A DNA stretch of 64,000 nucleotides, taken from the NCBI RefSeq assembly GCF_014645015.1, contig NZ_BMLC01000001.1:1-64000 (forward strand). Direction: 5' to 3'. The translations under genes were made by a program, and so were the position numbers. The notes beneath the pieces were generated by a model. It saw nothing but the letters and a program-made list of their open reading frames with translations, was not told where the DNA came from and made no database searches. Below are positions 54,052 to 63,403 of the stretch, one piece after another (positions within the stretch are counted from its first letter, which is position 1; every line of letters begins with the position of its first letter). The stretch is from Salinibacterium xinjiangense. GTDB taxonomy: Bacteria; Actinomycetota; Actinomycetes; Actinomycetales; Microbacteriaceae.

Positions 54052-55248
54052 TCAGGGGTGTCGCTCCCTGTCTCCGGCTATCGCCTGGATTCTCAATGCG
54101 AGCTTGCGAAGCAAAGCGTGGTCGCGTTCTGAAAACTTCCTGGGCTTCGAATCCAGAAGGCACAGAGCGCCGACCCTCTGCCCATCTACCGATTCGATCC
54201 AATAGCCCGCATAAAATCGTGGACTGCCGATGCGGCGGACCCAGCTCCGATCGCGAAATCGAGGGTCGACCGATAAGTCCTCGATCACGAGGAGCTCGGA
54301 CCGCTGGATCGTGAGCGAACACACACCCTCGGAGCGCGAAAGCTGCCCGGGGTTGATTCCTGCAAAAGATTTGATCCACACGCGGTCGGTGTCGATGAAG
54401 CTCAGCGCCGCAGTGTCTGTTCCGAAGAGGTTTCGAGCCATCTCGACAACGTCGTCGAATCGAGGATTTCTGATGTCGTTGAGCACGCCCATGTCACGAA
54501 GCGCCGCGAGTCGGGCATCCTCGTTGATGGGGCCGTGAATGGCCGACATCCTCCGGCAGGCCGACGCGTTCAGGGCACTGACCATCTGAGGTGCAATGGA
54601 TGATGCCCAGCCCAGGTAGTCTTCACGGTTTACCACGCCGTCGCCGTGCTTGACGATCGGGACCGTGATCGGGGTCACGCGCAGCCCCTCGCACTCTTCG
54701 ATGAGGATAATCACGAAATCGCGTGCTCGTTCAGCTACGGCCCGCGCATACGCTGAGGGATTCGGGATGCCAGCCGAGGCGACCGCCATCCCCATGAGCA
54801 CGAACGCGTGGGGCGCACAACTGTCGAGCAGCCTCACGAGATTGCGTACCTGGGACCTGAAAGATTTCACCGGTAGAAGTTGCAAAGCCTCGATGTCGCC
54901 GAGAACGAGCAACGAGGTATCGTATCGAGTGAGGTCTGCGCGGGAATACATTTCGACGGCGTCGACAATCGACATCTCCGACTTTGCGGCGATATCGACG
55001 TTCACCCCACGTTCGGTCGACTCCGCCAGACGCCGCGCCAGGTTTCCACCCAGAGCGAGATCGTGTGACAGCACTCCGAAGCCGACGGCGATCCCACTGC
55101 CCATGAGCAGTACCCGATCGGCGTTCGGGCCATCCGAATGGACGGAAGGCGAATCGAGCGGAGTGGGCAACTGGCGCCAGCCGTTGCCCGAATATTTCAT
55201 CCAGACATCAGCCAACGGCCGCGCAATTGCATGCACAAGACTGTCCAT
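54052..55248 (-). CDS. SGNH-like domain fused to a GAF domain, 398 aa
   Basis: Residues ~45-230 repeat the SGNH-like domain of the neighbour (RVLLMGSGIAVGFGVLSHDL; SLLVLGDIEALQLLPV; REDYLGWASSIAPQMV), here with Ala where block I should have the nucleophile Ser. Residues ~243-395 form a GAF domain: RLAALRDMGVLNDIRNPRFD, FGTDTAALSFIDTDRVWIKS, GVCSLTIQRSELLVIEDLSV, GYWIESVDGQRVGALCLLDS. GAF domains bind small ligands or tetrapyrroles. The fusion suggests a ligand-sensing protein with a possibly inactive hydrolase fold. GGGGGG lies before the ATG. Confidence 0.75.
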   Translation of the reverse strand: MDSLVHAIARPLADVWMKYSGNGWRQLPTPLDSPSVHSDGPNADRVLLMGSGIAVGFGVLSHDLALGGNLARRLAESTERGVNVDIAAKSEMSIVDAVEMYSRADLTRYDTSLLVLGDIEALQLLPVKSFRSQVRNLVRLLDSCAPHAFVLMGMAVASAGIPNPSAYARAVAERARDFVIILIEECEGLRVTPITVPIVKHGDGVVNREDYLGWASSIAPQMVSALNASACRRMSAIHGPINEDARLAALRDMGVLNDIRNPRFDDVVEMARNLFGTDTAALSFIDTDRVWIKSFAGINPGQLSRSEGVCSLTIQRSELLVIEDLSVDPRFRDRSWVRRIGSPRFYAGYWIESVDGQRVGALCLLDSKPRKFSERDHALLRKLALRIQAIAGDRERHP

Positions 55249-55370
55249 GTATCCCCCCCGGGTTGATAGCGGTTTACCGCGACCTTAAGCGTTCAACGCA
55301 AGCGGGAGCGGCAGTAGAGCCTATCGCGACGCTCAAAGACTGTAAGACATTTCTACAGGGTCGGGCCGAT

Positions 55371-55766
55371 TCAGCGGCCGATGTCACCCTTGCTCTGCGC
55401 GGCCTTCGCTGCCCTGTCGGCTTTGATTCGAGCGTTGTCGTCCTGCACTGCAGCGTGCGTGGCACGCTCGACGACGAGCCACTCGGGTTTTTGCTCCAGC
55501 AGGCTCTTGATCTCTCCCGACGTCATCGTGTCGGGCGCACCGGCCCGGGCGAGCCCGGACGTTGAGATGCCCAGTTTGCGCGCGACCTCATGGCGGGGAT
55601 GCGGGCCATTCTTGCGCAGCTCGATGAGCCATTCCGGCGGAGTGGACTGCAGTTCAGCGAACTGGCCGCGAGTGACCTCGCCCTCCTGGAACTCGACGGG
55701 GGTCGCCGGCAGGAAAATTCCGAGCTTCTTTGCCGCAGTAGCGGGCTTCATGGTCTGGTCTGGCAC
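55371..55766 (-). CDS. DUF5997 family protein, 131 aa
   Basis: Small actinobacterial protein: KPATAAKKLGIFLPATPVEF, STPPEWLIELRKNGPHPRHE, VARKLGISTSGLARAGAPDT, LLEQKPEWLVVERATHAAV. The middle resembles a helix-turn-helix, so it may be a DNA-binding protein, but no function is established. The GTG at 55766 follows TACCCT by six bases; ATG 55751 is the alternative. Divergent from the LysR-substrate-domain gene, with overlapping -10 boxes. Confidence 0.78.
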   Translation of the reverse strand: MPDQTMKPATAAKKLGIFLPATPVEFQEGEVTRGQFAELQSTPPEWLIELRKNGPHPRHEVARKLGISTSGLARAGAPDTMTSGEIKSLLEQKPEWLVVERATHAAVQDDNARIKADRAAKAAQSKGDIGR

Positions 55767-55788
55767 AGTGCAAGGGTAGCCTGTGGCA
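55767..55788. promoter_or_regulatory. Overlapping divergent -10 boxes, second example
   Basis: AGGGTAGCCT (55773-55782) contains TAGCCT rightward and, on the other strand, TACCCT leftward, sharing the central TA. Each box ends exactly six bases before a start codon: ATG 55789 rightward, GTG 55766 leftward. Confidence 0.62.
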
Positions 55789-56436
55789 ATGGTCCAGCCT
55801 GCGAATCCTGTCTACGGGGCCACCCTGAGGGTGGCATTCGTGGTCGGGGTCACCCCCGGCAAGTGGGCGAAAGTGTGGGCGGAACGACTGCCTCGCACCT
55901 ACCTGGAACTGACCGCATCGACCACGGCGCAGTCACGGGCTGCGCTCGACGGCGGCTCTGTCGACGCCGCATTATTGAGGATGCCCGTCACGGGTGACCA
56001 CCTGTCGAGCATCCCTCTTTACGTCGAGCTTCCCGTCGTCGTCGTGCCCAAGGATCACGCCATCGAGGCGATGGATGTCGTGACCATGGGCGATCTCGAT
56101 GCCGAGAATGTGCTGTCGAATGACGTGCAAGATGCCGACTGGGCACCCATTGTCGAGTTGGTTGCGACCGGTGCCGGCGTTGCCGTCATGCCGCAATCGG
56201 TCGCGAGAGCACTCAGCCGGCGGGACGTGGTCGCTCGGCCCGTCTCCGATGGCCCTCAGAGCCGGATCGCTCTTGCGTGGCTCTCGACCAACGACAGCCC
56301 GCTGGTCGAGGAGTTCATCGGGATCGTGAGAGGCCGAACCGCGAACAGTTCGCGCGGAGTGCAGCCTCCTACGGAAAAGAAGTCGAAGCCCGCCAAGCCC
56401 CGGACGCCCGATCGTCGACCGGGTCGCCGACGCTAG
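55789..56436 (+). CDS. LysR-type substrate-binding domain protein without HTH, 215 aa
   Basis: Type 2 periplasmic-binding fold as in the effector half of LysR regulators: ATLRVAFVVGVTPGKWAKVW, DGGSVDAALLRMPV, YVELPVVVVPKDHAIEAMDV, LVATGAGVAVMPQSVARALS. There is no N-terminal helix-turn-helix and no signal peptide, so it can bind a ligand but not DNA by itself. The C-terminal tail is strongly basic (KKSKPAKPRTPDRRPGRRR). Its fixed partner may be the divergent DUF5997 protein, which has an HTH-like middle; this is inference. Confidence 0.78.
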   Translation: MVQPANPVYGATLRVAFVVGVTPGKWAKVWAERLPRTYLELTASTTAQSRAALDGGSVDAALLRMPVTGDHLSSIPLYVELPVVVVPKDHAIEAMDVVTMGDLDAENVLSNDVQDADWAPIVELVATGAGVAVMPQSVARALSRRDVVARPVSDGPQSRIALAWLSTNDSPLVEEFIGIVRGRTANSSRGVQPPTEKKSKPAKPRTPDRRPGRRR

Positions 56437-57845
56437 TCGTCGTGCGCGATGACCAGCGACTCGATCTCACGCATCACCATGACTGCGAGATCTTCAAGGG
56501 TAGCCAGAGCGTCGGCATCGATCGTGCGCGGGTTGACATCCAGTACGCAGAGGGTGCCGATCGCTGTGTTGTCCGCGGTGAGTATGGGCACGCCTGCGTA
56601 GAACCTGAAGCTCTCCGCATCGGATCCATTCGGCGTCATGAGGGGATTCTGCGCCGAACGCAGGTCGATCGTGGCATCCTCTATCACCCAGGGCGTCGAC
56701 TGGATGAGGGCGGGCGCGTTGGCTGCGGCATCCATTCCGATGCTCGTGACATCGAGGTCGTGCCGTGACGTGAACCACACGCGGTCATGACCAGCAATGC
56801 TCACCATGGCAAGGGGGACCGAGTTGATCCTCGCCGCCATCGCCGTGATGCGGTCGAAAGCTTCGTCGGGAAGCGGCCCGGGAAGAGCGATGCTGACCGG
56901 TACCGGAGGTGACCTGTGCCGGCCCGACTCGGTGAACGAGAACTGGCCCATCGCGACGGCGACATCGTGGATGTCCGGGCGATCGCCCGGCTCCCGGGAG
57001 GTCATGGCCCGCAGCAGAATCCGCCACTCGTCCGGAACGAAATCAGGGATCTCGGGGTCGTTGATCAGCCGCACCATCGCGGAGTGCTGAGGGGGGCCGG
57101 GAAAGGCGAGTTGCGCAGTGAGGCATTGCAGGATCACGAGTCCCAGCGAGTACACGTCGCTGGCGGGCCCTACCTCTTCGCCCCTGGCCTGCTCCGGGCT
57201 GAGGTAGGCGACCGTGCCCGTGACGAAATCCTCATCCGGAATCGCCTGGGCATTGCCGATCGACGCGATGCCGAAGTCACCCAGTTTCGAATTGACTGTG
57301 AGCCCGTCGTTGGTCACGGCGATGAGGATGTTTGCTGGCTTGACATCCCGATGCACGATGCCCAGGTCGTGCACGTATTCGAGTGCGGTAGCGACCCAGT
57401 ATCCAACCTGTGCAACCTGGCGATTGCGCAGCGGTCCGGAATCGAGCCGACGTTTAAGGTCGGTGCCCTCGACGAGTTCCATCACGAAGTAGATGCGCGG
57501 CCTGACGGGATCGGTGCGGTCGACGGCGGCATCGAGCAGGGTGACGAGGTTCGGGTGGTTCAGGCGCGCAAGCACATCGACTTCGATTTCCTGTCGGCGG
57601 AAATCGCTCTCGGCGGTGGCGGCCGCCCTGAACAGCTTGACCGCGACGTCCCGGCCGAGGAATTCATCTCGCGCCCTGAAGACGTCAGCCATTCCCCCGC
57701 GGGCGATGAGAGACAGCGGCGTGTAGCGGCGTCGCAGGCGAGCGGGCCATTCGAAATCGTCACTTGTCGCAGAGGCCTCTGTTGCAGAGCTGTTTGCCTC
57801 AGGGTCGTTTGCCGCAGTGTTGTCTGTTGCCGAGTCGTTTGTCAC
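56433..57845 (-). CDS. Serine/threonine protein kinase with C-terminal GAF domain, 470 aa
   Basis: PknB-like kinase domain (residues ~38-300): LIARGGMADVFRARDEFLGR (P-loop), VAVKLFRA (Lys), GIVHRDVKPANILIAV (catalytic loop), KLGDFGIASIGNAQ (DFG) and YLSPEQARGEEVGPASDVYS. Instead of a membrane helix and PASTA repeats, a GAF domain follows from ~325: ITAMAARINSVPLAMVSIAG, TPWVIEDATIDLRSAQNPLM and VPILTADNTAIGTLCVLDVN. It is therefore a cytoplasmic kinase, probably gated by a small ligand or redox state. GTG start with GGAGG. It ends by sharing CTAG with the converging gene. Confidence 0.9.
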   Translation of the reverse strand: MTNDSATDNTAANDPEANSSATEASATSDDFEWPARLRRRYTPLSLIARGGMADVFRARDEFLGRDVAVKLFRAAATAESDFRRQEIEVDVLARLNHPNLVTLLDAAVDRTDPVRPRIYFVMELVEGTDLKRRLDSGPLRNRQVAQVGYWVATALEYVHDLGIVHRDVKPANILIAVTNDGLTVNSKLGDFGIASIGNAQAIPDEDFVTGTVAYLSPEQARGEEVGPASDVYSLGLVILQCLTAQLAFPGPPQHSAMVRLINDPEIPDFVPDEWRILLRAMTSREPGDRPDIHDVAVAMGQFSFTESGRHRSPPVPVSIALPGPLPDEAFDRITAMAARINSVPLAMVSIAGHDRVWFTSRHDLDVTSIGMDAAANAPALIQSTPWVIEDATIDLRSAQNPLMTPNGSDAESFRFYAGVPILTADNTAIGTLCVLDVNPRTIDADALATLEDLAVMVMREIESLVIAHDD

Positions 57846-57983
57846 TGGCCCTCCCCATTCTGCTCCGTCGACAGGTGCCTGATCACAGAATAGGGATCCG
57901 TACGACTATCGCCGGGGGGATTACGGTGAACGTCCTGTTCACGATAAAGGGAGCAAACCGGGCGAGCAGTACAGTGGATCGAG

Positions 57984-59402
57984 ATGTCATTCACGCGACG
58001 CAGCTTCATCATCAGCGCCGGGGCCGGTGCGTCGCTGCTCGTGCTCACCGCCTGTACCGACACGCCACCCTCTCCCACACCTGCGCCCACGCCGACCCCG
58101 ACCAGCTCAGTGCCGACTCCGACCAGCCTGCAGCGCAGCAACTGGTCAAACGATCCCCTCGCCATGGGCGCGGTGAGCTTCCTGCCGCCGGGGGCGACAC
58201 CTCTGCACCGTGAGAATCTCGCCCAGAACGTCATCGACAGGGTGTTCTTCGCCGGTGAGGCGACGGCCGATGAACCCTCCACCGTCCGGGGAGCACGGAG
58301 TTCGGGCGCCAGGGCCGCCGGCGAAGTGTTCGCGCTCGTCGGTGAGGGTGAACGTATTGCCGTGATCGGTGCCGGCGCGGCCGGTGCCGAGTGCGCACGA
58401 CGACTGTCAGCGTTCGGCATCGACGTCGTCGTGCTCGAGGCACGCGACCGCACCGGTGGGCGCATCCACAGCACGAAGGCCGAAGAAGGCCAGTTCAGCG
58501 AGCTGGGCGCCTGGCGGCTCGGTCTCGACAGCGATGCCGAGATCATCGCGGCCCTCGAACGACTCGATGTCGCCAGGAGCGCGACCACTGGTCCCGACCT
58601 CATGCGCGATCCTGACAGTGGCGCCGAGGTTCTGACGCCCGCAGGCATTACCCCAACCAACACGGCCGGGGCTCGTGCCGTCAGCACCGCCGTCGAGTGG
58701 GCCGTCATGCAGGTCGCAGACTCCACCCTCGCCGATGCTCTCGACACTTCGGGCGCTCGCAGCACCGCGGCCGCTGCGAACCAGGGCGACCTCGTGGGTG
58801 AGGCTCTGCTTGAGCAGTACCTGCGCGGGCTTGCTGTCGAGACGGGGGCTGAGGCATCCGCTCTCTCTGCATGGTTCACTCCCCCGCAGGTGCCAGAAGA
58901 ACGCGCGCTGGTCACCGGGGCGTTCGTCACACTCGTCGATGACGATCTGGAGGGGATCGAGACCTTCCTGTCGACGGCCGTGCTGGGAATCTCGTACGAC
59001 GACGACCGGGTCAGCCTGCGGCTCGGCACGGGCGAGTCGCTCAGCGTCGACAGGGTCGTCGTCACGGTGCCGCTCGGTGTGCTGAAGGCATCCGCCATTA
59101 CATTCTCGCCACTGCTGCCGTTCGGTCACCGCGCTGCCATCAACGCGATCTCCGTCGGCGCAATCGAATTGGTGAAGGTGACATTCGACGAACCCTTCTG
59201 GACAACGGATGCCACCACCTGGGGCCTCGTCGGAACCGACGAGCTCATCACCAGCTGGGTCAACCTGCTGCCGGTCACCGGCGAGGCGGCGCTGGTCGGC
59301 GTGGTGGGTGGCGACGCCGCGATCGCGCTTGCAGGGCTCACCGAAAACGAACTCGCGGAGCTGGTCAGTTCGAGCCTGGAGCCGTTCGCCGATAACGCGT
59401 GA
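57984..59402 (+). CDS. Lipoprotein flavin amine oxidase with rearranged domain order, 472 aa
   Basis: Signal with RR and a lipobox (TRRSFIISAGAGASLLVLTAC, Cys24), so it is a Tat-exported lipoprotein. Residues ~52-113 (NDPLAMGAVSFLPPGATPLH, RVFFAGEATADEPSTVRGAR, SSGARAAGEV) correspond to what is normally the C-terminal FAD-binding end of amine oxidases. Only then comes the usual N-terminal FAD motif ERIAVIGAGAAGAECARRLS and EARDRTGGRIHS. The chain ends at ELAELVSSSLEPFADNA, just where the missing C-terminal part would normally follow. I read this as a circular permutation. Substrate unknown. TACAGT lies 8 bases before the ATG. Confidence 0.82.
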   Translation: MSFTRRSFIISAGAGASLLVLTACTDTPPSPTPAPTPTPTSSVPTPTSLQRSNWSNDPLAMGAVSFLPPGATPLHRENLAQNVIDRVFFAGEATADEPSTVRGARSSGARAAGEVFALVGEGERIAVIGAGAAGAECARRLSAFGIDVVVLEARDRTGGRIHSTKAEEGQFSELGAWRLGLDSDAEIIAALERLDVARSATTGPDLMRDPDSGAEVLTPAGITPTNTAGARAVSTAVEWAVMQVADSTLADALDTSGARSTAAAANQGDLVGEALLEQYLRGLAVETGAEASALSAWFTPPQVPEERALVTGAFVTLVDDDLEGIETFLSTAVLGISYDDDRVSLRLGTGESLSVDRVVVTVPLGVLKASAITFSPLLPFGHRAAINAISVGAIELVKVTFDEPFWTTDATTWGLVGTDELITSWVNLLPVTGEAALVGVVGGDAAIALAGLTENELAELVSSSLEPFADNA

Positions 59403-60045
59403 GGGCCACGACGGCGAGACCTACGACGGCGAAGACCAGCAGGGCCAGCCCAGACAGCCTGATGAATTCCAGTGGGCCGCTGAGTTGCCCCGGATCGAGG
59501 AAATAATAGGGAAACCAGCCTACGGTCGCGCCACGCAGCATCGTCAGCCCACCCCACGTCAGTGTGTAGCCCAGCACGAAGACGATGGTGCGCCAGGCTG
59601 CGCGACCCCGGCCGGGCGACAGGAACCATTCCAGGACGGCGAGCGGTGGTAGCCAGAAGTGCAGCACCAGGTCGGAGGTCGGCACGTCGATGGGGACGGT
59701 GTTCGACCCGGCCTGCTGCACGATAAGGGCGAACACGATGCCCGCGGTCACTGTGCAGGTCAGGATGCAGGCTCGCATGGCCGTCAGCCACACCGGATCC
59801 CGATCAGACCGCAAAGCCACCGCTCCGGCGAGGACTGTCACTATCGTGAAGGCGATGTTGCTCTGGATGGTGAGGTAGGCGTAGTAGTTGTTCGGGGTGA
59901 ATGTCGCCGACCCGAGGCCCCAGTTGTAGCGCGAGATGAGTGCCATCGCACAGGTCACCGCCAGGGCGAGCCTGACGGCCCCGACGATCGACCGAGGGCG
60001 TAGGTCCCTGACCGTCGGGGGCAGCAGTTTGGCGACATTCAGCAC
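59365..60045 (-). CDS. Pr6Pr family membrane protein, 226 aa
   Basis: Six hydrophobic segments and the family pattern: YYAYLTIQSNIAFTIVTVLA, DLVLHFWLPPLAVLEWFLSP (HxxxP), TIVFVLGYTLTWGGLTMLRG and WFPYYFLDPGQLSGPLEFIR. This matches the Pr6Pr/FAR-17a-AIG1-like group of six-helix integral membrane proteins, of unknown role in bacteria. GTG start without a clear ribosome binding site. Its end overlaps the amine oxidase end antisense by 38 bases. Confidence 0.82.
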   Translation of the reverse strand: MLNVAKLLPPTVRDLRPRSIVGAVRLALAVTCAMALISRYNWGLGSATFTPNNYYAYLTIQSNIAFTIVTVLAGAVALRSDRDPVWLTAMRACILTCTVTAGIVFALIVQQAGSNTVPIDVPTSDLVLHFWLPPLAVLEWFLSPGRGRAAWRTIVFVLGYTLTWGGLTMLRGATVGWFPYYFLDPGQLSGPLEFIRLSGLALLVFAVVGLAVVALTRYRRTAPGSN

Positions 60046-60136
60046 GGTGAAGAGGGGTCAACCGCAGGGATCTACCGACGGAAAACGCATGAATCGAGAC
60101 TACGCCCCCCGGTTGGACCCTTCGGCAACGGCATAT

Positions 60137-60592
60137 CTAGTTGGCTATGGTGCCTCGCCAGGCGCCGTCGGCAGAGCCCTCGGTTTCGATGTACTTCTTG
60201 AAGTTCTCGAGTTCGTGCTTGACAGCGCTGTCGGGGATGTTGAGCGCGGCGCCGGCTTTTTCGACGAGTCCACTCGGGTCCCAGTCGATCTGCACGGCCA
60301 CTCGGGACGACGTGTCGCTGAGCTTGTGGAACGTCACGACTCCGGCGTGGTTTACCTCGCCGCCGGTGCTCGTCCAGGCGATGCGGTCATCCGGAAGCTG
60401 CTCACTGATCACCGTGTCGAACTCGCGGGTGTTGCCTGCGATGCTCACGACCCAGTGGTTGTGCTTGTCGTCCTGCTGGGTGATCGATTCGACGACGCTC
60501 AGAAACTTCGAAAACTCTTCAAACTGGGTCCACTGGTTGTACGAGATGTTCACGGGAACACTAACGTCGATCGTCTGCAGCACTTGTGCCAT
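60137..60592 (-). CDS. SRPBCC (polyketide cyclase-like) family protein, 151 aa
   Basis: START/Bet v1-like fold of the SRPBCC type: VLQTIDVSVPVNISYNQWTQ, FEEFSKFLSVVESITQQDDK, HWVVSIAGNTREFDTVISEQ, RIAWTSTGGEVNHAGVVTFH and the final helix VKHELENFKKYIETEGSADG. Such proteins bind hydrophobic ligands or act in stress; ligand unknown. AAGGAG lies 8 bases before the ATG. Confidence 0.85.
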   Translation of the reverse strand: MAQVLQTIDVSVPVNISYNQWTQFEEFSKFLSVVESITQQDDKHNHWVVSIAGNTREFDTVISEQLPDDRIAWTSTGGEVNHAGVVTFHKLSDTSSRVAVQIDWDPSGLVEKAGAALNIPDSAVKHELENFKKYIETEGSADGAWRGTIAN

Positions 60593-60685
60593 TGTGGGGC
60601 TCCTTAAGTCGTTGCGTGGTTGTCATTCCACGTTAGGCACAATGGCGAATGGATGCCCCGGGGTTGATCCCCGGGCCGACGGCGG

Positions 60686-61021
60686 CTATGCGTTCCGCGC
60701 CGCCTCCAGCGTGCGCTCCCGCATCGCGAGGAACAGTGGGAAGGTGAACGCGAACGCCGTGATGCCCGACAGCACGATGTAGAGCCAGGCCCGCTTCATC
60801 CCGAGCCTGCGTGATTCCACGACGATCAGGATGCAGCCCGCCACCGCAACGACCAGCAGGTCGACAGTCAGCGACGACACTGCGGGGCCGCTGTTCACCC
60901 AGTCGCCGATGAAATCGCGGAGCTGGATGACCGCCAGCGTGTTGAACGTCCAGGTGCCGACGAGGCCGACAATGGCCAGAACGAGCCAGGTGATCGCAAG
61001 AGGGGTCCAGTTCTTCGTCAT
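60686..61021 (-). CDS. DUF2834 family small membrane protein, 111 aa
   Basis: Three hydrophobic helices: PLAITWLVLAIVGLVGTWTF, TVDLLVVAVAGCILIVVESR and LYIVLSGITAFAFTFPLFLA. The spacing and the TWTFN...F motif after helix 1 fit the DUF2834 family of unknown function. ATG at 61021. It diverges from the SOS operon and shares its upstream region. Confidence 0.75.
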   Translation of the reverse strand: MTKNWTPLAITWLVLAIVGLVGTWTFNTLAVIQLRDFIGDWVNSGPAVSSLTVDLLVVAVAGCILIVVESRRLGMKRAWLYIVLSGITAFAFTFPLFLAMRERTLEAARNA

Positions 61022-61089
61022 GGGAACATTGTTGCGCGTGGGGCCGCTGGCTGCACAGGCGACGACACGCCGCACAATGTCGTCCGTAA

Positions 61090-61124
61090 TTGACACACTA
61101 GAACGTATGTTCGAACATAGGGTT
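61090..61124 (+). promoter_or_regulatory. SOS promoter of the imuA'-imuB-dnaE2 operon with LexA box
   Basis: TAGAACGTATGTTCGA (61099-61114) is one base off the actinobacterial LexA consensus TCGAAC-N4-GTTCGA. It lies between TTGACA (61090-61095) and, 17 bases on, GAACAT (61113-61118), which ends six bases before the ATG at 61125. LexA bound here would cover the promoter. Confidence 0.85.
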
Positions 61125-61838
61125 ATGACCTCCGCTGCCGCGACCCTCAGTAGCCCTGAGCACGCTGTCGAAAGCAGCGCGCCCAGCAGGGTGGCCGAGT
61201 TGCAGGCTCGCATCCGGTCGATGCAGGCAACGAAGCTCGACTCGAAACTGATCCCCACGCACCCCGCGATCGCCGGGTTGCTGCCGGGTGGCGGGCTGCA
61301 GCAGGGAGCCGCATACTCCGTCGACAGTTCGGCGATGCTGCTCATGACCCTGCTGGCGGCACCCTCGGCCGCGGGTTCCTGGTGTGCGGTCGTTGGCGTG
61401 CCGGAGTTTGGAGTCGAAGCAGCGGGTCATTTCGGTATCGACCTCGACCGGCTGGTGCTGGTGCCCCGGCCTGCAGAGCAGTGGCTGGCCGTGACGGCGG
61501 CCGTCGCCGATGTTATGAGCGTTGTCGTCACCCGCCCGCCCAAGCGCGCAACCGACTCCAGCATCGCGCGCCTCGCAGCGCGGCTGCGCCAGCGCGGAAC
61601 CACCCTGCTCGTGCTCGGCAACTGGCCCCAGACCGAGGCGATGCTGTCACTGTCCCAGAGCACCTGGCACGGCATCGGCGACGGCCACGGCCACCTGTCA
61701 TCACGCGAAGTGACCATCACCGTGACCAGCCGCATGACGGGCCGACCCCGCAGCACGAGGCTCTGGCTGCCCGATTCCGGAGCTGTAGTGAGACGATCCG
61801 ACACCCGCGTCGACGACACCCGCAGGTACGGCACATGA
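61125..61838 (+). CDS. imuA': ImuA'-like RecA/SulA-related SOS protein, 237 aa
   Basis: First gene of the mutasome operon. RecA-like shape without a Walker A: PAIAGLLPGGGLQQGAAYSV, DSSAMLLMTLLAAPSAAGSW, CAVVGVPEFGVEAAGHFGID, LDRLVLVPRPAEQW and VVVTRPPKRATDSSIARLAA. ImuA' of mycobacteria supports ImuB and DnaE2 in error-prone lesion bypass. The ATG at 61125 directly follows an SOS promoter, and its stop overlaps the imuB start (ATGA). The longer frame beginning at 60831 lies upstream of the promoter and is not used. Confidence 0.88.
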   Translation: MTSAAATLSSPEHAVESSAPSRVAELQARIRSMQATKLDSKLIPTHPAIAGLLPGGGLQQGAAYSVDSSAMLLMTLLAAPSAAGSWCAVVGVPEFGVEAAGHFGIDLDRLVLVPRPAEQWLAVTAAVADVMSVVVTRPPKRATDSSIARLAARLRQRGTTLLVLGNWPQTEAMLSLSQSTWHGIGDGHGHLSSREVTITVTSRMTGRPRSTRLWLPDSGAVVRRSDTRVDDTRRYGT

Positions 61839-63403
61839 GGTGGGAACCGCCGAGGGTCGCCCTGCTGTGGTGCCCGGACTGGCCGGTAACTGCCGCGGCC
61901 CAGTCGGCAAAGGTCTTGGTGGATGCCCCGATCGCCCTGATCTCGGGCGGCATAGTCCATGCTTCATCCGCTGCGGCGCGCGTCGAGGGAATCCGGCGTG
62001 GCCTGCGATTGCGCGAGGCGCAGGCCATGCACCCCGATCTCGTGGTGCTCGACTACGACGCAGCCCTCGACAACCGGGCGTTCGAACCCATCATCACGGC
62101 TCTCGAAGCCCTCGTTCCCGGTGTGCAGGTGCTGCGGCCGGGGCTGTGCGCTGTGCAGGTGCGCGGCGCTGCTCGGTATTACGGTGGCGAACTGCCCGCC
62201 GGCCTTTTCCTCACCGGCAGGGCAGACGACGAGGGGGCAGGCGGGGCCAGGGTCGGCATCGCTGACGGGATCTTCACGGCAGACCAGGCGGCACGCAGAA
62301 CCGGTGCGCAGGGCAACGATCGTGTGCATGTGGTGCAGACCGGGCATTCGGCCGACTTTCTCGCACCACTCGGCATCGGGCTGCTCGACGACCAACAGGG
62401 ACCGGTGGGGGCAGCGGCGATCGTCACCCTGCTGCGCAGGCTCGGCATCCGCACGCTCGGTGATTTCGCCGGACTGCCCGCCGACGATGTGACATCGAGG
62501 TTCGGGCCCCCCGGAGCACGCCTGCATGCGCTGGCGAGCGGCCGCGATTCGTGGCCCGTCACCCCACGCACTCCCCCGCAAGACCTGGATGTGATGATCG
62601 ACTTCGAGCCGGCCCTCGACCGGGTCGACCAGGTTGCGTTCGGTGTTCGAGCGATGGCCGAACGGTTCATCCTCGACGTCACGGCGGCGAAGCTGGTGTG
62701 CACGGCCATCCGCGTCGAACTCGACTCCGACTCCGGTGAGCTCTCTGAGCGCGTCTGGCTGCATCCTCGCTCGTTCACCCCGGGTGATGTCGTCGACCGC
62801 GTGCGGTGGCAGTTGCAGGGTTCGGGTGAGGTCGGGCTGAGCTCCGGGATCACCAGGGTAAGGGTTTCGCCCGAGGCCGTCGACGCGATCGGCAATCACG
62901 AGAGCGGGCTGTGGGGGCAGGGTCCGGATGAACGGATCCACCACGGCCTGTCACGCGTGCAGAGCATGCTCGGCCACGGCGCGGTGCTGATGCCGGGCGT
63001 CGGCGGGGGCCGCACCCTCCACGAGCGGCAGCAATTCGTGGCCTGGGGCGACAGGCTCGTGGGCGACCGCCCGGCCGGGCAGCCCTGGCCAGGGCAGCTC
63101 CCCACTCCGCTGCCTGGCACCGTGTTCTCGCCGCGGCATCCCGTGCACGTCTTCTCCCGCACAGGAGCGGCCGTCGCCGTCGACGAGCGAGGTGCCCTCT
63201 CTGCACCGCCCGTCTCGTTCTCAGCCACGGGAACGCAGGCCCGCACGCTCACGGCATGGGCCGGCCCCTGGCCCATCGACGAACGCTGGTGGAGCGAGGA
63301 TGCGACGAGTTCCTGGCGGTTCCAGGCTGTAGATGACACAGGATGCGCCTGGCTGCTTGTGCTCGACGCCGGCGGCTGGTGGGCCGAAGCGAGGTACGAC
63401 TGA
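61835..63403 (+). CDS. imuB: ImuB, inactive Y-family polymerase of the mutasome, 522 aa
   Basis: Y-family fold adaptor that links DnaE2 to the beta clamp. Begins RVALLWCPDWPVTAAAQSAK, then ARVEGIRRGLRLREAQAMHP, PGVQVLRPGLCAVQVRGAAR, LRRLGIRTLGDFAGLPADDV (helix-hairpin-helix) and GPPGARLHALASGRDSWPV. The catalytic DxD and DE acids of true Y-family polymerases are not present, as in other ImuB proteins. The long C-terminal part has FSPRHPVHVFSRTGAAVAVD and AGPWPIDERWW, both typical. Coupled to imuA' (ATGA) and to dnaE2 (TGATG). Confidence 0.9.
   Translation: MRWEPPRVALLWCPDWPVTAAAQSAKVLVDAPIALISGGIVHASSAAARVEGIRRGLRLREAQAMHPDLVVLDYDAALDNRAFEPIITALEALVPGVQVLRPGLCAVQVRGAARYYGGELPAGLFLTGRADDEGAGGARVGIADGIFTADQAARRTGAQGNDRVHVVQTGHSADFLAPLGIGLLDDQQGPVGAAAIVTLLRRLGIRTLGDFAGLPADDVTSRFGPPGARLHALASGRDSWPVTPRTPPQDLDVMIDFEPALDRVDQVAFGVRAMAERFILDVTAAKLVCTAIRVELDSDSGELSERVWLHPRSFTPGDVVDRVRWQLQGSGEVGLSSGITRVRVSPEAVDAIGNHESGLWGQGPDERIHHGLSRVQSMLGHGAVLMPGVGGGRTLHERQQFVAWGDRLVGDRPAGQPWPGQLPTPLPGTVFSPRHPVHVFSRTGAAVAVDERGALSAPPVSFSATGTQARTLTAWAGPWPIDERWWSEDATSSWRFQAVDDTGCAWLLVLDAGGWWAEARYD

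Follow-up and report, generated by a model that had tools for sequence, protein, structure and literature searches.

Few flavoenzymes have been studied as thoroughly as the monoamine oxidases, the polyamine oxidases and LSD1, and to our knowledge all of these carry their segments in the same order. Here, we describe an open reading frame from a 64,000-nucleotide stretch of Salinibacterium xinjiangense DNA (the window, taken at its full length) that raises the question of whether this order can be rearranged in nature: the part that closes the ordinary amine-oxidase fold stands ahead of the dinucleotide-binding start. We address whether the order is real, how widely it is shared, how the chain may fold and what the protein may do. 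The reading that best fits the whole, and that we consider probable, is that of a naturally occurring circular permutant of the PF01593 fold, conserved as a mostly Tat-exported family in Actinomycetota. Such a conserved natural permutant would show where the amine-oxidase fold tolerates cutting and rejoining.

Segment order of the window protein

The amine-oxidase-family gene occupies positions 57984-59402 of the forward strand and encodes 472 amino acids from an ATG start, in a frame that is open throughout. Its features and its neighbour are given below with their basis in brackets; A1 denotes an alignment and profile of 23 permuted proteins, the window protein included.

57984..58052, + strand: Tat-type signal peptide, residues 1-23, MSFTRRSF...LVLTA (sequence and motif rule)
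58053..58055, + strand: Cys24, predicted to be lipid-anchored, in lipobox LTAC (sequence; at least 90% of the 23 A1 rows)
58056..58109, + strand: Pro/Thr-rich linker, residues 25-42 (sequence; comparable linkers in other A1 rows)
58110..58334, + strand: moved segment, residues 43-117, the closing part of the amine-oxidase fold (PF01593, LSD2, segment profile)
58245..58265, + strand: FFAGEAT motif, residues 88-94 (sequence)
58335..58349, + strand: new junction linker from old C-terminus to old N-terminus, residues 118-122 (edges from profiles)
58350..59399, + strand: body, residues 123-472, dinucleotide-binding start through substrate-binding domain (PF01593 6-369, LSD2 335-697, body profile)
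58368..58385, + strand: GxGxxG (GAGAAG), residues 129-134 (sequence)
59169..59171, + strand: Leu396 at the conserved catalytic lysine position (alignment column)
59365..60045, - strand: Pr6Pr family membrane protein, 226 aa, convergent neighbour (NF038065, E 9.2e-28)

The first-pass annotation of this DNA had placed the closing motifs before GxGxxG, and the residue positions confirm this: the motifs NWSNDP, FFAGEAT and GARSSGARAAG begin at residues 53, 88 and 103, respectively, against 129 for GAGAAG. The closing FAD motif (FAGE and the SG..AA helix, residues 88-113) lies ahead of GxGxxG and so is not C-terminal. G129, G131 and G134, together with the acidic E152, are invariant across the 23 rows of A1.

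Aligned separately, both segments match the family profile in swapped order, with profile positions 6-369 at 58392-59399 (E 5.4e-33) and 367-442 at 58104-58328 (E 1.7e-12). The two stretches total 161.9 bits against a cut-off of 19.8 and extend the family match over the whole profile. In annotation, Pfam splits the protein into two separate pieces, and none of the curated NCBIfam cut-offs was reached by it among the matches listed (25 of 83). With the PF01593 family (LSD1/LSD2, spermine and polyamine oxidases) the window protein shares both fold parts, the GxGxxG, E-R-GGR and closing FAGE motifs, and cover of the whole model; it differs in its swapped order, in lipoprotein export (by motif) and in having Leu396 for lysine. 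On the chain of the best solved match, human LSD2 (4gu0), A1 positions 124-468 align with residues 335-697 (i-E 8.9e-55) and positions 42-120 with residues 697-775 (i-E 9.1e-16). Both matches meet at residue 697, so nothing was lost or duplicated and the cut is clean; the chain stops, as had been claimed, where the closing part normally follows. A reordering without loss had also been proposed, and it stands: the two segments jointly cover the ordinary model, the cut lies in the loop past the last body part, and a short linker joins the old ends.

A segment profile finds the closing segment of the window protein at 58110-58331 (110 bits), and a body profile gives 455 bits. A second closing segment, which a downstream copy split off by a frameshift would have left, was looked for in six frames of 55000-63000 with the segment profile and is absent, the three other matches listed all scoring below 0 bits. 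That the order is an artefact of the window genome, whether an assembly chimera, a frameshift or an annotation error, deserves practically no credence, given the uninterrupted frame, this six-frame scan and the recurrence of the permuted order in 128 of 398 genomes. Conservation in other genomes and the absent second copy together rule out an artefact or a split gene, and conservation of the segment order excludes chance. On sequence grounds, the circular permutation is almost certainly real.

Distribution and number of origins

Within the genus, a permuted protein is found in five of 27 genomes, namely G000, G023 (75% identity), G010 (49%), G003 (47%) and G026 (a divergent protein, L013), and the top ordinary-order match has E 3.3e-21. 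Orthologues of the same order are present in related genera as well: at E <= 1e-30 the window's family gives a match in 128 of 398 genomes and 28 of 85 genera, and each match listed for the 128 genomes extends, in permuted order, over portions of both segments, with a single one broken into two pieces. Wider searches used A2, a junction profile of 138 positions of which ordinary proteins can match only half; the genome draws of the class, order and phylum searches overlap. The class search (E <= 1e-22) returned 36 of 394 genomes: 14 from the window's family, 14 from other families (f24, f26, f32, f37, f40 and f43; one of them, G451, truncated at a contig edge) and eight half matches, of which the two that were read (L086 and L087) have ordinary order. 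The order search (E <= 1e-22) returned 17 of 248 genomes, four of them outside the window's family (f55 and f56), and the phylum search (E <= 1e-24) returned 11 of 396, six of them outside the class (f72, f80, f82, f85 and f121). Outside the window's family, the A2 junction profile finds the permuted order in 24 genomes from 13 families.

Seven plasmid records cover at most 72% of the query as joined pieces, and the one read fully (Haloarcula, L098) is ordinary; none of the 11 plasmid records matching the L013 junction query reaches 80% cover, and no phage match to that query was found. Scans of viral collections gave one relative, the same contig three times, in ordinary order. L057 of Mycolicibacterium, whose match of 44-463 seemed permuted at first, proved to be of ordinary order.

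From 110 loci, 94 two-segment proteins were kept (67 permuted and 27 ordinary), leaving out repeats or fragments (L001, L005, L058, L083, L085, L097 and L109) and all single-segment proteins; a closing segment at both ends occurs in none of the 94. In the ordinary proteins (n = 27), which were found by likeness to permuted ones or to L057 and are not a random sample, the closing segment follows the body after 1-13 residues. The junction linker measures 5 residues in the window protein and 4-14 among the permuted proteins listed, with edges set by the profiles. Permuted proteins end at the ordinary boundary between body and closing segment, and the groups are cut at the same loop. Below, the lineage means the permuted proteins of the window's family (f1) except L013, amounting to 60 distinct genes, of which 24 are in the tree and the rest are assigned by family and match. 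The other permuted proteins (n = 22) comprise L013, L092-L094 (tree sisters of the lineage clade) and 18 more.

Trees were built from 67 of the 94 proteins (near repeats out) and then from 66 (46 permuted and 20 ordinary) without L025, which has a very long branch. The 24 lineage members form a clade with support 100/99, and L092-L094 are its nearest sisters. Whether the order arose several times at this loop, among exported and cytosolic amine oxidases, instead of once is a closely matched question, and we give several origins somewhat less than an even chance. The careful tree (common segment order) and the quick tree each have four order changes, one change is seen in none of 200 bootstrap trees of the careful tree (5-95% range 3-4), and either the active site or the export signal sets L013 and the f55/f56 group apart from the permuted proteins of the family. 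Against this, holding all permuted rows together lowers the log-likelihood by 13.67, which the AU test does not reject (p 0.166), so that we claim neither one origin nor several; the starred branches force just one change, and few ordinary rows are in the tree (n = 20). The permuted groups also share their cut loop, whose recurrence in every group would follow from a single event or from a strong structural bias towards that site. No trace was found of a mechanism of origin, either tandem duplication with trimming or fission with fusion.

L013, from congener G026, is like the window protein in being permuted at the same cut loop and in having a twin-arginine signal with a lipobox-like Cys. It is unlike it in keeping the lysine and an LGASWIHG stretch, in its shorter body and in that no Pr6Pr neighbour was found, and it may represent a separate or early lineage. 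Since both orders occur in one genus, and even in one genome (G026), the mode and frequency of circular permutation in an enzyme family become testable. The G026 locus (L013/L127), permuted with ordinary active-site motifs kept and sharing its genome with a relative of ordinary order, is key for dating the event. In the literature, no permuted flavin amine oxidase was found from titles and the starts of abstracts among the matches listed, most subscription papers lying outside this scope. New here are the Tat-lipoprotein trait, the lysine loss and the convergent Pr6Pr gene of the permuted proteins in the window's family.

Export signal and fold closure

The window protein had been called a Tat-exported lipoprotein, and at the level of motifs it has every element: a twin-arginine motif (TRRSF), a hydrophobic stretch and the lipobox LTAC with Cys24. 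By motif rule, twin arginine, hydrophobic stretch and lipobox are found together in 60 of 60 lineage members, so that the permuted proteins of the window's family look like Tat lipoproteins in all those examined, a trait described here for the first time. Among the other permuted proteins, 18 of 22 pass the twin-arginine rule (17 counting out L089, which passes via letters upstream of its likely start) and nine of 22 also have a lipobox by the motif rule. No export signal is visible in L071 or L088-L091. The latter four (families f55 and f56) form a permuted group that keeps the lysine, and the L089 chain seems to begin exactly at the cut loop. The Tat system transports folded proteins; as a Tat substrate, the permutant offers a natural experiment on folding and FAD loading.

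Of the ordinary proteins, six of 27 pass the twin-arginine rule and one passes the lipobox rule; L057 and L099 have lipobox-like cysteines by eye. A Tat-like signal as in the window protein is seen in the ordinary-order amine oxidases L057 (Mycolicibacterium sp. S2-37), L099, L098 (a Haloarcula plasmid) and L111 (a viral-collection contig), which differ from it in having a C-terminal closing segment and in keeping the lysine. L057 is approximately 35% identical to the window protein, and the closing segments of L057 and L111 are 40% and 47% identical, respectively, to that of the window protein.

The sequence itself shows the layout: the closing segment with its FAGE motif and last helix is first, followed by a short linker and the GxGxxG strand, and the chain ends at the loop that in the ordinary order leads into the segment. 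In the ordinary amine-oxidase fold the first strand begins next to the end of the closing helix, close enough for a linker of five residues to bridge the gap as an ordinary Rossmann crossover. Taken with this topology, the identity that the moved segment shares with its counterparts in L057 and L111 would put it in its usual place in three dimensions. A normal closed fold within one chain is very probable on this evidence, and the permuted chain would bind FAD in the usual fold. A segment-swapped oligomer, in which each FAD domain would borrow its moved segment from a partner chain and the order would be tolerated through dimerisation, is quite unlikely: the short junction of 4-14 residues is also compatible with it, but the joined ends are expected to be neighbours in the ordinary fold and a swap would be unneeded. 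In a closed single chain, the new N-terminus would put the membrane anchor on the body-end loop and not on the first strand of the FAD domain, and the active site might then be presented differently to the membrane. AlphaFold2, applied to a seven-row alignment (A6; the window protein with parts of L057 and of L111), yielded a model that could not be used (mean pLDDT 37, pTM 0.25), and alignments A4 and A5 were set aside with the Rossmann start or the closing helix misplaced.

The active-site lysine and the Pr6Pr neighbour

L057 has a lysine in the column that, by motif and alignment, we take to be that of LSD1 K661. The column holds lysine in 27 of 27 ordinary proteins and in 20 of 22 other permuted ones (L078 and L082 both have R), compared with nine of 60 in the lineage (65 rows less the five repeats L149-L153). 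Fifty of the 60 have another residue (T 23, L 8, S 7, V 6, R 4, A 1 and Q 1), and one has a gap. The window protein has Leu396 here in place of an active-site lysine. Lysine is kept by nine lineage members and by 20 of 22 other permuted proteins, including the sisters L092-L094, so permutation itself is not tied to its loss. According to one article (PMC3184146), there is a lysine-water-flavin motif in which the active-site lysine bridges via water to flavin N5, the LSD1 change K661A abolishes activity, and in maize polyamine oxidase a Lys300-to-Met exchange makes flavin reduction 1400-fold slower. The initial label of amine oxidase therefore holds for family membership, by the PF01593 match, and is doubtful for function, given that leucine 396 replaces the catalytic lysine.

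We lean towards a changed chemistry in the lineage, judging from these residues. The window protein and most permuted family members, without the lysine, would catalyse another, or a slower, FAD-dependent redox reaction on the outer side of the cell; it may be dehydrogenase-like, with electrons passed to a partner instead of O2. According to one report (PMC10611581), NicA2 and pseudooxynicotine amine dehydrogenase of Pseudomonas putida S16 belong to the flavin amine-oxidase family, react poorly with O2 and deliver electrons to CycN. These two enzymes are cited solely to illustrate the chemistry proposed, and no permutation or lysine loss is claimed for them. That the family's permuted members have ceased to be redox enzymes, and persist as FAD-binding or structural lipoproteins with a decaying catalytic site, is unlikely. 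The variable lysine column (T, L, S, V, R, A, Q or K) would suit such a history, but the FAD-motif residues are invariant in A1 and the gene is under purifying selection, with dN 0.167, dS 1.06 and dN/dS ~0.16 (NG86) against congener G023 (dN 0.152 and dS 2.09 by YN00). The window protein is thus likely an exported FAD protein with a normal fold, and with changed chemistry in its lineage. The loss of this lysine from the majority of the family's permuted members suggests an activity, in an exported flavoprotein, for which no description was found.

In the window, the oxidase and Pr6Pr genes overlap by 38 bases (59365-59402), both stop codons included. A convergent, tail-to-tail Pr6Pr gene accompanies 34 of 35 lineage loci (the window and 34 fetched loci, each from a different genome), and at the sole exception, L140, the contig ends 32 bases past the oxidase frame. 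Across the 34 loci the two frames overlap in 23, lie 2-32 bases apart in nine, and are separated by 801 and 1099 bases in the remaining two. Where the frames overlap, in these 23, the coding ends share bases on opposite strands, which places a joint constraint on both C-termini. No Pr6Pr gene was found within the fetched stretch at six other permuted loci (L127-L132), and no other open reading frame in the surroundings of the window gene is shared by more than three of 20 loci; one further row, with seven loci, is an antisense frame of the oxidase gene itself. Pr6Pr is widespread in the window's family (168 of 199 genomes, often in several copies), so that co-occurrence says little and adjacency more. 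This commonness, together with the absence at the six other permuted loci, means that the link may be mere old synteny. The Pr6Pr membrane protein possibly acts together with the permuted protein, and we hold a functional link as a tentative suggestion that falls a little short of probable; a search for Pr6Pr in the literature covered gave no papers. The fullest version of events is doubtful: that the order arose more than once at the same loop in Actinomycetota, mostly in exported proteins, and that one lineage, having then dropped the lysine, turned into a lipid-anchored flavoprotein whose reaction is non-classical, encoded beside Pr6Pr.

Three genomes of genus g77 (G102, G164 and G215) have, in addition to the convergent Pr6Pr gene downstream, another Pr6Pr gene that precedes the permuted oxidase gene and shares its strand. 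Elsewhere in the window, 56433-57845 (- strand) encodes a Ser/Thr kinase whose C-terminal part is by eye like the GAF region of the GAF protein at 54052-55248 (- strand); Pfam reports no GAF domain in the kinase. A Y-family polymerase-like protein (PF00817) is encoded at 60831-63403 (+ strand) after another open reading frame, and the two presumably resemble an ImuA/ImuB pair.
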